Shown here: in pieces, positions 29,103-64,000 of the stretch
Layout of the letters: each line of letters begins with the position of its first letter
Position numbering within the stretch: position 1 is the stretch's first letter
Source: Lineolata rhizophorae
Taxonomy: Eukaryota > Ascomycota > Dothideomycetes > Lineolatales > Lineolataceae
Reading direction: 5' to 3'
DNA length: 64,000 nucleotides
Assembly: GCA_010093515.1 (NCBI GenBank)
Contig: MU001672.1
Span: forward strand, 1,493,562 to 1,557,561
Notes under the pieces: model-generated
What the model was told of the DNA's origin: nothing
The model's database searches: none
Seen by the model: only the letters and a program-made list of their open reading frames with translations
Translations under genes and position numbers: made by a program

Positions 29103-31532
29103 CTACGTCCAAAGCCTACACGTTCCGTCCGCGCCCGCGCTCACGCACCACGGCTCCCGCGGCGCCCAATCCAGATCCATCACGCCTAGCTCTTTAACCA
29201 CTTTGTGGCCCCTCAGCACCTTGAGCGGGACAATGGTCGCGTTCTCCAAGAGGTCGCCGACAACGCTGCCGTGGAACACCTGGACGGTGCCGTCGTCGCT
29301 GGCGTCGGCGAAGAGCGGCAAGGTCCCTCCTTGGTGGAACCGCGCCGCGCGCACACCCTTGGAGTGGTACCGCATCGTCTTGTAGGGCCGCGGCGATAGG
29401 TCGAGGTCATGCCAGAGCAGGCGCCGGTCGTAGGCGCCCACCAGCACGTTGGAGCCGCCCGGGTGCACGTCGAGGCTCGAGATCCAGCGTGCGCCCGGCT
29501 GCAGTGTGTTGGTGAGCGTCTGTGCGGCTAGGTCGTACGCTCGCACCGCCTGCTGCGTCGCGACGAAGAAGATGGGCTTGGACGGGTGGAAGCGCGCTGT
29601 TTGCGGGAGGCCCCGCAGCCGCCGGAACGGCAGCTGCGTCTTGTGCGAGGACAGCGTGTGGATGGCGACGGCATGAGACTGGCCTCGGGGCGAGACGGTG
29701 GCGATGTGATCACCGCGCCTGTGCCAGGTGAGCACCTTGACAGTGGACCGGACGGTGACGGTGATGAGGACGCCCGCGTCAACGAGTTTGGCCGATGGCC
29801 GTTCCCATTTGCCAGGTTGTTCCTTCGTCTCGCCGGTGGCGATATTGGAGTCATTCGTTGCTCCATGGCCCCACCCCGCGTCCAAAACCTGGTGACTGCG
29901 TTGCGCAACATCTGGAGGGGCGAGTTGCAGAGGGATGGCAAAGTATACGATCTCGCCCGCCGCGGCGGCCAGGATAAGCGTGTCTTTGGTAGGTCGCCAT
30001 CGCACCGAATCTACGGCCTCACCGTCCTTTTCCCGGCCAGGAGTCAACCTGACCATCCACAGCTGCCTTCCAGTCAGCAGTTCCCAGACACGGACCGTGC
30101 CGTCGTCACCACCGCTGGCAAGATAAATGCCGTTTGGATCAACGGAGCAGCTACGTACGCGACCTTCGTGGCCCCGGAACACAGCCGCGCAAGTGGTCGG
30201 GAAGGGGCGTAGTTCGTCCGGCTTTGGGAGGTTGGGCAGGAGAGACTCTGGATCGATGTTGAGCTTGTTGCGGCGGACACGAGGTGCCAGATACAGGTCG
30301 AGAGAGCGCTCGAAAATCTCCTTGATGAAGCGAGAGTAGCCAGGTACCTTGCGCAGCGCGTCGTACTCTGTCGGAAGATACTCCTTGTCGCGGTCTTCCT
30401 CGTCGGCCGTCTCCCACACTTCGCGCTCCGCCTTATTGGGCAGATATTCACGCGGCGGTCGGTAGGAAAGGTCGAATCCTGGTCGTGGAAGTTTGGGCGC
30501 CGGGATGTGCATTGGGTGGTCTGCCCGTGGTGCTTCGTTCTCCCAGACATCATAGTTAAACACATCCTCCTCTTTGTCTTCCTGCTCTTCCGGCGGCCTG
30601 TAGGGCTTTATCCTGCCTTCTCGAATGGCCTTGACCATCTTCATGATTCGCTTATGCTCATATTTCGACGGCACGAATCGTCGCTTGGGCTCCGGCGCCG
30701 CGCTCAGTGGCATTATTTCGGTCTTGCTCGTAAAGTACTCCACCATGTCAGGATAAGGGTCGTAGCCTTCCTCGGGGACCTCATTTCGAGTCAACTTTTT
30801 CAAAACTTCCAGCTCTTCCCGGCTGAGTTCGAGCGGCTTCCCTGTCTCCGGGTCGGTCAGACCTGTCCACCCCTTCGGCAGCTCTATGCTATTGAGTAGT
30901 GCGTCCAAGGCCTCGCCCTTTGCCGGTCGCATAATCTTCTTGCCGTTGATGTCGTAGCCTATGTGCGGGTAACCGTCGTAAAAGGAAAGCGGGATGTTAC
31001 CGATGGTGTTTGTCATAGTAGGTGCATCCGAGTCGTCTGAGTCGTAGACCGGTTCAATGTCCTTGTAGACGTAGCGCGGGTTGCCATTGGCGTCGGTAGT
31101 AACGGTGTAATTGGGCTTGTCGTTCTCTTCCTCGAGGTTACCGCCATGTACGCCGTTCGTCTTAGCATCCTGCCATGTACCATTGCGTTGATTTGCGTGT
31201 ATTGATGTCTTGTCATCGGACTTTGACGCTTGAATGGGCGACGATAGTTTTCCGAGATCTTTTCTAACCAGCACTTCCTCCTCGTCTTCCGAAGAGGGCA
31301 CTTCCTCCGAACCTAGTCCCTCCTCTTCTTCCTCTCCAAAAATTTCACTCTCTTCCTCGGAGCTGCTCACATCCTCTTCGCTGACCTCGTCCTCGCCTTG
31401 TGATAGGATACCCTCGAGATCAGCATCGAGCTCTTCGTGGCCTTCCCACTCTTGCTGTGTAGTTAACTCTGGCGCCTCCGGCGAGACGACCTTGCGTTTT
31501 TGACCCGTATGATTCGGCGTGGCCATGTCCAT
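29103..31532 (-). CDS. erb1: Ribosome biogenesis protein Erb1 (BOP1)
   Basis: An intron-free gene of 809 aa. Erb1 works with Nop7 and Ytm1 in pre-60S maturation in the nucleolus. The N-terminal ~130 residues are highly acidic ([20 protein letters not shown]). The BOP1 N-terminal domain spans about 145-410: [59 protein letters not shown] and [17 protein letters not shown]40 propeller fills the remainder, beginning [24 protein letters not shown] and ending [14 protein letters not shown]. The first ATG in frame is at 31532; an ATG two codons on (31526) is equally possible. Length and order of domains match the family. Confidence 0.96.
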
Positions 31533-56360: not shown

Positions 56361-58812
56361 ATGCATCAGACGCGGTTCTTGGGCGTTTTCGGCCTCTGCG
56401 GCCTTGCACCTACAGCGACTCTCGCTGCAGTGGTCAAGCCCGCAATTGGCCTCGAACGCCGCCTTCTTCATGAAGAAATCGACAAGCGTGGATGGTCACC
56501 CAATGACACCTGCGTCTCCGAAGAATCTGCACCCGCGACCACCGCGCCGAAAGCCAACATCTGGAGTGCCATCACTCCCGAGGACAATGCCGCTGTTTGG
56601 GACCTCCTTCACGATCCCGCCACTGGGCTCAACCTGACGGCCCCAGGAGACGCGGTCCTCACGGACAACTACGTGTACTGGATCGACACGGTCCCTGTGA
56701 ACAAGTCTGATGCCCTACCGTACATTGACGGGGACGGGCCAATGCCTCCAAAGTACGCTAGAGCTATCATCTTTGAGGGTGGAAAGGAGCCTCCGATCTC
56801 TCAGGAGTACATGGTTGGCCCCCTGCCCGTCTGCGAAGAAACCACCGTCGCCCCGCTTGATTATATCTATAACGGCGGAATGGGGGGTGCGGTCCCGTTC
56901 AACGGCCGCCATTTTGACTCCAAGCGATCTGCTGCGACGGAGCCTCTTATTACCGAGGTCATGTCTTCCATTGCGGATATTACGGTGGCCATGTTCAATG
57001 GCGCCTACTACGGCTCGGACGACGACAGAACCAATCTAACTACAACGTCTGGTACTCCGTTGTCGTTCGACGGCACCCAGGCGTTCCGCAACATCATGTT
57101 CCGCTACCCCGGCGAGCCGCATGGAACGGCCTCGTACATGATCCCGCTTGACTTCTACATCCTCATCGACTGCACGGGTACGGATGCTTCCAAGTACTTC
57201 CTCAAAGGCATCGTCACCGGCGAAATGTTCTATCCGTCGGTAGACGAGTTTCGTGCCGCCTATGACTCGGGCGAGGTGGCGTTCGCCTTCCAGCAGACCC
57301 GGGATGACAATTGGGCAATGGTGGACTACAAGCCAGAGCTAGGCGAGCGTGAGCTCGAGGAGCGCTTCTCGCCTAGTAGCTTGGAACTCGACGGCAAGCG
57401 CTACAAAATCGATCCGGAGGCTCGCTATGTCGAGTACATGGGTTGGAGCTTCTACGTTCACTTCACTCGCAGTTTGGGCATCATGTTCTATGACATCAAG
57501 TTTAAGGGTGAGCGTATCCTGTACGAGCTCTCGCTGCAGGAGGCCGTTGCACAGTACGCCGGAAACCAGCCCAAGGCTGCCAACACCGTCTACCACGACA
57601 CGTACTACGATCTCGGGACTTATATGACTTCAATGGTCGAGGGCTTCGATTGCCCGTTCGGCGCCACGTTCTGGGACGTTTCCTACTACGAGGAGAACCT
57701 GAAGGTTAGCAACCCCGATGCTGTGTGCATATTCGAGACCGACATGACCCACCCCCTGTCACGCCACCGTGCTGGTGGTGGGTCCACGGACTACGACTTC
57801 CAGAATATGGGCGTCGTTAAGGGATCTTTCCTGGGCGTCCGTGCCATCGCCACTGTAGGAAACTACGACTGTAAGTGGCGCTGAATTCTTAGAGCTTGTG
57901 ATCGTAGCCATTAACCGCTCTGCGACAGATGCCTTCACCTACCAGTTCCACCTGGACGGTACCCTGCAAGTTGAGGTCCGCGCCAGCGGTTACTTGCAGT
58001 CGAGCTACTACTATCCGGATCAGCAGGCCTGGGGCCCGCGCATCTACCAGGCAACCATGGGTTCGCTGCACGACCACGTGCTGACGTGGAAGGCCGACTT
58101 TGACATCGTTGACACCGCGAACTCGCTTCAAGTCAGCGAGCTCAAGGCAGTCAACCAGTCACAGCCGTGGTTCCCCGAGCTCGGCGAGTTCGAACAGCTC
58201 CAGCTCGACATTTCGTACATGGAGGAAGAGAAACAGTTCAACTGGTTTCCCAACCAGCAGGGCATGTACGTCGTGGTGAACAAGGATGCGCTCAATCAGT
58301 GGGGCGAATACCGTGGCTACCGCCTTGTCCCCGGCATGTCGGACATTCATCTTTCAGTGCTCAATAGCCCCTTCAGCCTGAAACAGAACGAATTTTCCAA
58401 GTCGCACCTGGCCATCTCGCAGCATCACGACACGGAGGTCTTCGCCAATAGCGTCCAGAACGCCAATCTGCCTTGGAAACCGCAGCAGGACTTCTCCATG
58501 TTCTTCGACGGCGAGTCAGTCGAGCAGGAGGATATCGTCCTCTGGTTCAACCTGGGCATGCATCACTTCACGCGCTCCGAGGACGTGCCCGTTACGCTGT
58601 TCACTGAAGCTCACTCGAGCATCTTGCTCGCGCCGCAGAATTTCTTCGACCGGGCTCAGGACGGCGACCTCAAGAACAGGCGCTGGCTGGTGCCTGACGA
58701 GGACACCGGCGAGCTTATGGTTGAGACGTACGGAATCGAACTGCCGCAGTGCCCGGTGATACTGGAGGAGCCGGCGGACGCGCTGGGAACCAATACGGAG
58801 ACGGAGTACTGA
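56361..58812 (+). CDS. Copper amine oxidase, secreted
   Basis: Two exons, join(56361..57870, 57929..58812), give 797 aa; the intron is 58 bp. The enzyme oxidises primary amines to aldehydes with release of ammonia and hydrogen peroxide. A signal peptide is visible (MHQTRFLGVFGLCGLAPTA). The topaquinone precursor is Tyr502 in GNYDY; the intron falls within the codon just after Asp503. The catalytic Asp is probably in YYDLGTYMTSMVEGFDCPFG, and a second conserved block reads WFNLGMHHFTRSEDVPV with copper-ligand His. QHHDTEVFANS likely carries the other His ligands. The N-terminal domain is short of some motifs seen in peroxisomal fungal enzymes, and the protein fits the secreted fungal branch. 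Two GATAAG sites and a TATA box precede it. Confidence 0.94.
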
Positions 58813-61692: not shown

Positions 61693-63405
61693 ATAGTGCG
61701 TCGGATGAATCCTGAGCTAGAGGTAAGGTGATGGGCAACTCCATAAGAGAGTGTCAGATGAAAGATCTACGGCGTCTCTTCGATATACTTCATATTACTG
61801 TTCGGCACCGTTTGGATATTCTCTTTATGGACTGAAGTATGAGCGATATCTAGCATTTGCTTTTACACAATATAACCTATCTCTCATCACCTAGTTCATA
61901 TACCGCCTTGTTATTATTTTTTCCTAACTCTAACCCTTTAGATCCTTCGACTTCATGCTGTACATAACTTGACCGTAACGGATATAATCTTATGTCCGGG
62001 CGTCTGCTCTGGTAGCCAGTACTAACCTAGCCGATAGAGATATTCTAATCCAATGGATACGAAGTCTGTAGTAGAGTAGGAAATCCTGAGCCTTGTTTTC
62101 CTTTGCTTTCCTTTTGATAATCACATACGTGACTCTCAACCCCTGGCATTGTGTATTTAACCTGCTCTCCCCTCACTTTCCTTTCACAACACACACAACA
62201 TCACGAACCACCCTGAAGTTGTCATTTTGCCTTGCTAACCTTACTCACACACGCACCTAGATAATAAAAGCGGACGAATCCCAAGATGCTGTGTTGCTAC
62301 AGTCAGTGAACGTACAGTTGAAATCCCGAGCCTCCCTTTGGCGTTACTATTTGTAATACCATCGAGACTAACACCTAATCCTTGTGCCCCCGAGGCCACG
62401 GCTGGATCTAGAAAGGGCAAGAAAATAGCAGTGTTGCCCGGAGGACAAAAGACCAAGAAAAGTCATCAGGTCGACTACTACTCTGCGATGGGCAGGTGCT
62501 TCAGTGCTGATCTAACAGGTAATTTAGCTCCCAGCGAACGAGCTGATGGCTCTGTTTCCCGACTCTGCAGAAGAATGGAATGACAGAAGTGGTAGCGCGT
62601 ATATACAAGACTACAGAAGACTCTCAGCGTGCTGCTGTCTGTTAGCCGCGAGCGGTCAGCCTCAGAAGCTTTCTTGAAAACAAGATCGGATGATCTCGAT
62701 AGTCTCAAAAAGGTCCTTCGCAAGCGGAGCTTCGCGCTTAAATACGCTGAATGGGCGCTAAGCAAAGCCCCCCCCCCCCCCCCCCCTTAAAAAAAAAAGG
62801 CAGAAATGAGAGCCGACCAGCTCTCGTACAACACTGTTTTGCGCGGATGCTCTTTGTTTTCATCGAAACGTGGCAAACTCGAGGCTAGCACGGATGTTCA
62901 ACCCACGCACAGCAAAATAGCGGAGGCATGTTACCCTTATGTCTGAACTTATGCTGGTTCCGGCTGGAATCAATTACATCCGAGGTCGGCAAGCACTTCA
63001 CAGATTTCAAGGCTGCTGCCAGCCTGCAGGTCTTGTCAAGAATGAAAGGAAGTCGAGTATAGCCCTCATAAATCATTATACATCTTCAACGCGCGAATTT
63101 TGCCCAATGCCCAGGGTGCGGCCGAATAATGTCGATAGTACAATAGCACAATTAGTAGCAGCCTCGCCGTACAATAGATAGACTTCGGCTTTGAAACTTA
63201 GGACATGAGATGTTTAGTAATTTCAAGATTTGTAGCATCTAGTGCAGAATACGTAACTATAGGTTGATATAAAAGGGGTGGATGTGCATGCTTAGTAGAC
63301 GTGTTATATATGGTAACTTTGGACCTGAGTTAGACCTCAGAGAATTTGACACTCATTAATTTGTTTATATATATTATTTAGATCAAATTATGGAGTTAAA
63401 ATCAA
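61693..63405. other. Intergenic, AT-rich, no gene supported
   Basis: 1.7 kb downstream of mch1. It contains a 19-bp C run at 62768-62786 followed by an A run. Frames near 62.3-62.8 kb on both strands (81 and 95 aa) have no recognisable domain. The last part leads into a tRNA gene. Confidence 0.5.
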
Positions 63406-63442
63406 GGCAAGGTGGCCGAGTGGTTATGGCGTTGCGTTTAGG

Positions 63443-63469
63443 TCTAGCTAAACGTTTGAGCTTATCTTT
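63443..63469 (+). other. Canonical tRNA intron (27 nt)
   Basis: It lies right after position 37 of the anticodon loop, where the tRNA splicing endonuclease cuts. The intron has CTA (63444-63446), able to pair with the TAG anticodon, as is usual for fungal tRNA-Leu precursors. Confidence 0.85.
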
Positions 63470-63495
63470 CCGCAATTCGAAAGAGCGTGGGTTCG

Positions 63496-63553
63496 GTTCG
63501 TCAATATAACGCCTTTCTGGTCTGAATATGCCCGTAACTAACACATTGCGCAG
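63496..63553 (+). other. 58-bp GT...AG insert in the tRNA T-loop
   Basis: The insert sits between TTCG and AAT of the T-loop. It starts GTTCGT, contains TAACTAACA near 63535-63543, and ends GCGCAG, the arrangement of a fungal spliceosomal intron. Its length equals two protein-gene introns in this window (58 bp each, in the small membrane protein and the amine oxidase). Removing it restores a perfect T-arm and B-box (GGTTCGAATCC). Confidence 0.75.
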
Positions 63554-63574
63554 AATCCCACCCTTGTCAACATA

Positions 63575-63583
63575 TTTTTTTTT
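63575..63583 (+). terminator. Pol III terminator (T run)
   Basis: A run of nine T residues beginning six bases after the tRNA discriminator base, the usual Pol III stop signal. Confidence 0.75.
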
Positions 63584-64000
63584 AATCAACTCTGATTATT
63601 GTATTATATTTTTAGTCTACGCCTTATGAAGAGCTAGTTACGTTTTAGGGGGTAAGAGTAGCACGTGCGTGCAGGGTTAGCAACGATACCAATAGTATTA
63701 CATAAACCGATAGATAGCCGACCGATAGTTGGACCAATAGATACCAATACTATTGATTAGCTAATCAATACTTATCAATACCCCGCTTCACCAAAGAAAA
63801 ATTTTTACGATGCAGCCTACCAAGTACGGCCAATAAGCAATTAGCTAATAAAATCTAGACCAGCTGCTACAAGTACATATTATTTAATTGCAAAACTAAA
63901 TTTTCGTACGAAAATAAAGCAAGATAATTTTTAAAGTAACGTGTAGCACCCCCTGGTCGGTCAGACCCCCTGGTCGGTCAGCTTCCATCATCACCACCAC
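63584..64000. other. AT-rich tail of the window
   Basis: No gene. It is rich in short repeated words such as GATAG, CCAATA and TTAGCTAAT between 63700 and 63860, and ends with a 17-bp tandem duplication. Confidence 0.5.
63948..63981. repeat. 17-bp direct repeat, two perfect units
   Basis: The unit ACCCCCTGGTCGGTCAG occurs twice back to back (63948-63964 and 63965-63981). It is GC-rich against an AT-rich background and may mark the edge of a repeat array or element continuing past the window. Confidence 0.85.

Follow-up and report, generated by a model that had tools for sequence, protein, structure and literature searches.

The removal of introns from nuclear tRNAs is held to rest on the tRNA endonuclease, and mRNA-type introns in U6 genes occur in other fungi besides fission yeast. 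In the fission yeast Schizosaccharomyces pombe, U6, which is a Pol III transcript, carries an mRNA-type intron (PMC10484740, accessible text), so that the statement in the preliminary description of the present locus, that Pol III transcripts are not normally spliced by the spliceosome, needs qualification. Like S. pombe U6, the three tRNA genes described below would be Pol III transcripts with a U2-type intron, and the U6 case indicates that Pol III transcription and splicing are compatible (PMC10484740, accessible text). However, the S. pombe U6 intron lies near the catalytic nucleotides and is thought to be a product of reverse splicing (same source, same portion), whereas no comparable connection with the spliceosome exists for the tRNAs. 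The U6 gene of the genome under study (C17:515728-515827) is uninterrupted, with no intron; thus, there is no in-house Pol III precedent besides these tRNAs. A second, sub-threshold U6-like match (43.6 bits) lies at C17:441854-441958.

For ascomycetes, including lichen fungi, Bhattacharya reportedly described spliceosomal introns in nuclear rRNA genes in 2000. The accessible part of PMC6652019 likewise places mRNA-type introns in these structural RNA genes of ascomycetes, and spliceosomal introns are occasionally present in noncoding RNA genes (PMC2586383, accessible part). The ascomycete rRNA introns reside in Pol I transcripts, whereas the hosts considered here are tRNA genes with tiny exons and internal promoters. 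A search of the assembly with an ITS-primer pattern gave no match.

Introns that lie off the anticodon position, including in the D and T arms, are described for tRNAs of archaea, nucleomorphs, and Cyanidioschyzon merolae, and in this respect they resemble the inserts reported here (PMC4090602, accessible text). In C. merolae, a bulge-helix-bulge is given as the critical determinant of splicing, and the splicing mode of the nucleomorph tRNA introns is described as unknown (PMC4090602, accessible text). In contrast, the present inserts carry GT..CTAAY..YAG and no strict bulge-helix-bulge. Fungal introner-like elements also represent spliceosomal intron gain, but the Leu insert differs from them in that no repeated copies of it were found. 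Among the literature matches listed, none described a spliceosomal intron in a tRNA gene, in a search that did not extend to bioRxiv preprints or to the majority of subscription journals.

A tRNA-Leu(TAG) gene with two interruptions

The window, i.e., the whole stretch of 64,000 nucleotides of Lineolata rhizophorae DNA that was analysed, is part of contig C3 (1,578,392 bases) in a genome of 31 Mb and 48 contigs. A complete tRNA-Leu(TAG) gene with paired acceptor, anticodon, and T stems and two interruptions occupies positions 63406-63569 of its forward strand, and all features of this gene given below are on the same strand. The acceptor stem is formed by GGCAAGG (63406-63412) and CCTTGTC (63562-63568), and the anticodon TAG lies at 63439-63441. 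The first interruption (63443-63469) is a canonical anticodon-loop intron of the tRNA endonuclease type, 27 nt long and located at position 37/38, as called by ARAGORN. The second (63496-63553) is a spliceosomal-type intron of 58 nt, which divides the T-loop between G57 and A58 (TTCG / AAT), downstream of the 5' strand of the T-stem (GTGGG, 63487-63491). The 3' exon (63554-63569) consists of AAT, the other T-stem strand CCCAC (63557-63561), the acceptor strand CCTTGTC, and the discriminator A. The coordinates and anatomy reported earlier, from the 27-nt anticodon intron to the GTTCGT..CTAAC..CAG insert in the T-loop, are in full agreement with this layout.

Excision of the T-loop insert restores GTGGG-TTCGAAT-CCCAC. 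On the native locus, ARAGORN calls no gene, either in a scan of the window without introns or on the locus itself with anticodon introns allowed. With the insert taken out, the program reports tRNA-Leu(tag) (score 112.1; 27-nt intron at 37/38), which bears out the earlier claim that precise removal restores the tRNA. Rfam at the gathering score has no match in the 64-kb window, and with permissive filters it gives 13.3 bits at the Leu locus, in an alignment (63406-63472) that ends before the real T-arm. Since both ARAGORN and Rfam are silent on this locus, standard tools are likely to miss the gene.

Two further interrupted tRNA genes

Two other tRNA genes of the genome carry inserts with the same kind of ends. 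The first is a tRNA-Gly(CCC) gene (L043; C12:520229-520362, reverse strand), which has a 9-nt anticodon intron and, in its D-loop, an insert of 54 nt (GTAAGT...GACTAATTTCTTCTAG; C12:520289-520342, reverse strand) with the branch motif GACTAAT and the acceptor TAG. In the Infernal alignment, its D-loop holds 57 bases compared to 3 in the model, and its anticodon loop holds 12 compared to 3. The second is a tRNA-Arg(TCT) gene (L053; C3:411461-411585, reverse strand; 38.5 bits), the sole copy found, which is interrupted between positions 26 and 27 by an insert of 53 nt (GTATGT...AACTAATATTTTCTTAG; C3:411508-411560, reverse strand) with the branch motif AACTAAT and the acceptor TAG. Here the alignment shows 58 unaligned bases after the D-loop (1 in the model), among which the 3' strand of the D-stem is lost.

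Removal of the inserts leads ARAGORN to call tRNA-Gly(ccc) (114.0, with a 9-nt anticodon intron) and tRNA-Arg(tct) (120.3, with no anticodon intron). On the native sequences, ARAGORN instead proposes Ser(aga) for the Gly locus (106.3; intron of 65 nt) and Ile(tat) for the Arg locus (106.8; intron of 32 nt); both calls appear forced and have lower scores than those obtained without the inserts. The scores of the three insert-removed genes (112.1 for Leu, 114.0 for Gly, and 120.3 for Arg) fall inside the range of 105.5-123.3 spanned by 42 ARAGORN scores from this genome, a set that is not free of duplicate loci (two) and mis-assigned calls and that also contains the Leu gene and the Gly locus in its native form.

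When 43 tRNA bodies (42 loci and the Leu gene) were scanned for an intron pattern, it was present in three, which are exactly the Leu, Gly, and Arg genes. The pattern is greedy, starting within the T-stem in Leu and extending to a second AG in Arg, and the boundaries used here were taken from tRNA structure. According to blastn, the three introns have no similarity to one another. A pattern search for an intron at the same T-loop site in other tRNAs returned only the Leu gene and two matches without tRNA context; L045, a match to this T-loop pattern, was rejected as an interrupted tRNA, as it is a coding-supported intron without tRNA context. The locus L054 (C9:852242-852364, forward strand, 33.9 bits) is tRNA-like, with an intact B-box, a long T-run after it, and a long middle part; its anticodon loop is not assignable, and it was not counted as a fourth interrupted tRNA.

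Splice signals at structure-fixed boundaries

In each of the three genes, the tRNA structure fixes the boundaries of the insert, leaving one alternative register, which in Leu is a shift of one base. A U2-type donor (GTNNGT-like) stands at the exact 5' boundary in all of them: GTTCGT in Leu (63496-63501, beginning with the first base of the insert), GTAAGT in Gly, and GTATGT in Arg. Each insert also contains a CTRAY branch motif, namely AACTAAC in Leu (CTAAC at 63538-63542), GACTAAT in Gly, and AACTAAT in Arg, the putative branch A being followed by 12, 10, and 11 further intron bases, respectively. Each insert ends exactly with a YAG acceptor, which is CAG in Leu (63551-63553) and TAG in both Gly and Arg. 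The presence of donor, branch, and acceptor at structure-fixed boundaries in three genes supports their reading as spliceosomal introns, and the two additional genes make this reading stronger than it would be for Leu alone. The proposal in the preliminary description that an intron of spliceosomal type lies within a tRNA gene is well supported. The Leu donor GTTCGT, however, deviates from GTAAGT and GTATGT, which counts against it.

The rate at which such ends arise by chance was estimated from sampled genome DNA. GTNNGT..CTAAY..YAG was found exactly at the ends of 4 of 402,148 stretches of 58 bases, 2 of 402,558 stretches of 53 bases, and 2 of 402,476 stretches of 54 bases, which corresponds to 5 to 10 per million random genomic stretches of 53-58 bases. 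The four 58-base stretches include the Leu insert itself and the coding-supported intron L045, and one of the 53-base stretches (L050) is a coding-supported intron as well, so that the chance rate is, if anything, lower. With two registers counted, the chance of an insert with exact splice-site ends is ~1e-5 each, the three being taken as independent. Where boundaries are not fixed by structure, the intron motif proves little, as it occurs at 62 places in the sampled DNA versus 26-62 (mean 42.4) in ten Markov controls.

The inserts were also compared with introns in protein-coding sequence. Of 37 candidates proposed by an ab initio intron finder, several are clearly false, and the reference set was limited to the 11 coding-supported introns that combine GTNNGT with YAG. 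These are 47-99 bases long, with 6-21 bases after the branch A, ranges that include the tRNA inserts (53-58 nt; 10-12 bases), and one of the 11 (L019) also uses the donor GTTCGT. Since the reference introns were selected through a filter that includes the motif, this comparison shows compatibility and not frequency. Within the window, the copper amine oxidase gene has a GTAAGT..CAG intron of 58 nt (57871-57928) that splits its domain into two ORFs. Excision of these bases yields a single frame open to the final stop of the copper amine oxidase ORF; the branch-like motif of this intron is ATTAAC, which is not CTRAY.

Pol III signals and the partly rebuilt B-box

A TATA-like stretch (63366-63378) is located ~40 bases upstream of the tRNA-Leu(TAG) gene, and a run of nine T (63575-63583), the presumed Pol III terminator, follows it; within the gene and its introns there is no run of 4 or more T. 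A TATA motif is present within 60 bases upstream of 37 of the 43 listed tRNA genes. The Leu, Gly, and Arg genes all have TATA-like sites 40-47 bases upstream, T-runs downstream, and no internal T-run longer than 4. The Arg intron contains a T4, which may be a weak terminator, and T4 is also found inside six other tRNA bodies. Thus, with the inserts removed, the three genes combine a cloverleaf, T-runs, and TATA-like sites as functional tRNA genes do.

The Gly and Arg introns sit between the A-box and the B-box and leave both uninterrupted. In Leu, the B-box is partly rebuilt over the exon-intron junction (GGTTCG|GTTCG, 63490-63500), consistent with the earlier remark that the first bases of the insert partly recreate it. 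With a matrix derived from 42 of the genome's own tRNAs, in which the Pro row (L056) is one base out of register and slightly affects the scores, this junction scores 8.86. This is the best score of the locus (the next is -0.95), as compared to a median of 17.27 and a ~5th percentile of 7.72 (the third-lowest value) among the 42 genome B-boxes. A score of 8.9 is reached by 26 of the 127,980 11-mers of the window. The rebuilt Leu B-box is therefore near the 5th percentile and clearly weaker than a normal B-box. Among seven donor hexamers tried, GTTCGT rebuilds the box best; this donor would then serve both splicing and the B-box, and the unusual hexamer would have been kept for that reason. The Leu donor would be a natural case of a splice site that may also supply one half of a promoter box for Pol III.

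The tRNA gene set and the need for the interrupted genes

With 63 of 640 candidates scored, the Rfam tRNA model matches at least 39 genomic loci at E <= 0.001 and at least 41 at E <= 10. Few tRNA genes were located (41 family matches, the Leu gene, and two more), and as read from their anticodon loops they are mostly one per anticodon, many with anticodon introns, with two copies for Gly(GCC). Several isoacceptor names come from manual reading of the anticodon loop and not from ARAGORN, which mis-assigned some. A pattern for widely spaced A- and B-boxes matched 10 places, including Asp and Pro(AGG) genes missed by the family search, which by our own reading are ordinary except for their anticodon introns; a pattern with still wider spacing found no further tRNA genes. 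Genes for Glu (two), Tyr, Pro(TGG), and Gly(TCC) were not located in the genome; the search may have overlooked ordinary genes for these tRNAs, or the genes may be interrupted as well.

Leu-type 5'-half patterns (3 mismatches; one of them up to the anticodon) matched Leu(TAG), Leu(CAG), and Leu(CAA) in the genome, one copy each. They detected no second Leu(TAG), though a diverged copy could escape them. Likewise, a 3'-half pattern for Arg(TCT) matched only the interrupted gene and Arg(CCT) in the genome and hence no second Arg(TCT), though a copy with an anticodon intron could escape it. Under established decoding rules, AGA is decoded only by tRNA-Arg(UCU), and this codon makes up 92 of the 17,686 codons in 41 long stop-to-stop ORFs. 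Since AGA is in use and no second Arg(TCT) was found, the Arg insert at least should need removal. On the other hand, anticodon-loop reading identifies a Leu(AAG) gene (L037) and a second CCC Gly gene (L029), so that decoding does not strictly require Leu(TAG) or Gly(CCC), and the argument from need is weaker for them than for Arg.

Proposed processing of the interrupted tRNAs

Very probably, the locus is a working, probably single-copy Pol III tRNA-Leu(TAG) gene that has gained a U2 spliceosomal intron in its T-loop, and at least two other tRNA genes have been interrupted likewise. TFIIIC would bind the intact A-box together with the partly rebuilt junction B-box, and Pol III would transcribe the gene through to the T9 run. 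The spliceosome would then excise the 58-nt intron via GTTCGT, CTAAC, and CAG to create the continuous T-arm, and the precursor would fold as a tRNA only once this intron is gone. The tRNA endonuclease and ligase would subsequently take out the 27-nt anticodon intron as usual. For the Leu precursor, we infer transcription, splicing, and the order of the splicing steps from sequence features. The Gly(CCC) and Arg(TCT) genes would likewise have acquired spliceosomal introns, which are unrelated and occupy different positions. These data suggest that at least three tRNAs can be produced only with the help of the mRNA-splicing machinery. It is likely that several tRNAs, including the only AGA tRNA found, are routinely made by the spliceosome and then, for anticodon introns, by the tRNA endonuclease.

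If so, translation would be directly dependent on spliceosome activity, and tRNA supply would be tied to mRNA splicing. The spliceosome would also be able to act on Pol III precursors that are short and have very small exons. Spliceosome-dependent tRNAs would explain the absence of such genes from annotations, as exemplified by the Leu gene, which neither ARAGORN nor Rfam reports, and more tRNAs invisible to standard finders may carry such interruptions. These genes could also provide an exceptionally clear system for studying intron gain, since the exact point of insertion is given by the structure of the tRNA.

Alternative origins and modes of removal

With regard to origin, a copying family of introners could have hit these tRNA genes, which would not conflict with removal by the spliceosome. 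Introner-like elements are known in fungi and other eukaryotes (PMC4457414, PMC9860276; accessible parts of both), three unrelated tRNA genes were hit, and the preliminary description had proposed a mobile intron or introner for the Leu insert. However, a whole-genome search with 241 bases including this insert returned the insert only (best candidates scored, very common words skipped), and blastn found no copies of the three introns beyond chance 12-base matches in the sampled DNA (218,459 bases with overlaps), to which the search for the Gly and Arg introns was confined. The many near-identical copies per genome that characterize introners were thus not found for Leu genome-wide or for Gly and Arg within the sampled DNA. 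The mobile part of the earlier proposal is not supported, and an introner origin is unlikely.

The inserts could also be ectopic bulge-helix-bulge introns that are removed by the tRNA splicing endonuclease, as in Cyanidioschyzon or nucleomorphs. D- and T-arm introns in nucleomorph tRNAs and introns at non-canonical sites in a red alga provide a precedent (PMC4090602, accessible text). Under relaxed criteria, Leu admits a bulge-helix-bulge in the other register (10 of 10 pairs) and Arg admits one in the splice register (8 of 10), but Gly admits none. A strict bulge-helix-bulge (3-nt bulge, 4-bp helix, 3-nt bulge, at both cuts) is absent from all three genes in both registers, compared to a background of 4 in 5000 random sites. 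The relaxed form is passed by 31% of random sites (15% if at least 8 pairs are required) and by 8 of the 23 anticodon introns called by ARAGORN, duplicates and mis-assigned calls included (4 if at least 8 pairs are required); at these rates, the relaxed test decides nothing. The eukaryotic tRNA endonuclease is described as choosing its sites in a ruler-like manner (PMC4090602, accessible text), and its action would leave the donor, branch, and acceptor motifs at three sites unexplained. Removal by this enzyme is therefore quite improbable.

Still less probable is that the three are dead copies, in which decayed genes received an insertion by chance while functional copies exist elsewhere, for although D- and T-arm insertions in eukaryotes are generally deemed pseudogenes where synonymous copies exist (PMC4090602, accessible text), the stems in Leu, Gly, and Arg are intact after insert removal, the Pol III-type signals are retained, the pattern searches, which diverged or anticodon-intron copies could escape, revealed no second Leu(TAG) or Arg(TCT), and ends as exact as these have the ~1e-5 chance per insert given above. 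Between the two fates envisaged earlier for the Leu gene, unusual processing is favored over a killed gene. To our knowledge, there are no self-splicing introns of 53-58 nt.

Other features of the window

The ORFs of the window encode, among others, a HET domain, a DUF1965 copper amine oxidase, and BOP1/Erb1. The best PDB match of the BOP1/Erb1 ORF is 8i9p (1048 bits), which we take to be a Chaetomium structure, and the next ones, at 771 bits, are presumably from baker's yeast. This domain content, together with the ranking of the BOP1/Erb1 matches, indicates that the DNA probably belongs to a filamentous ascomycete. Two ORFs had no match in the PDB. ARAGORN also calls a tRNA-Ala(GGC) at 29265-29343, which lies inside the BOP1/Erb1 ORF on the opposite strand; this call is probably a false positive. 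Upstream of the tRNA-Leu gene (62768-62798), a run of 19 C is followed by TT and then by 10 A. Two head-to-tail copies of a 17-base unit, ACCCCCTGGTCGGTCAG, were seen by eye at 63948-63981.
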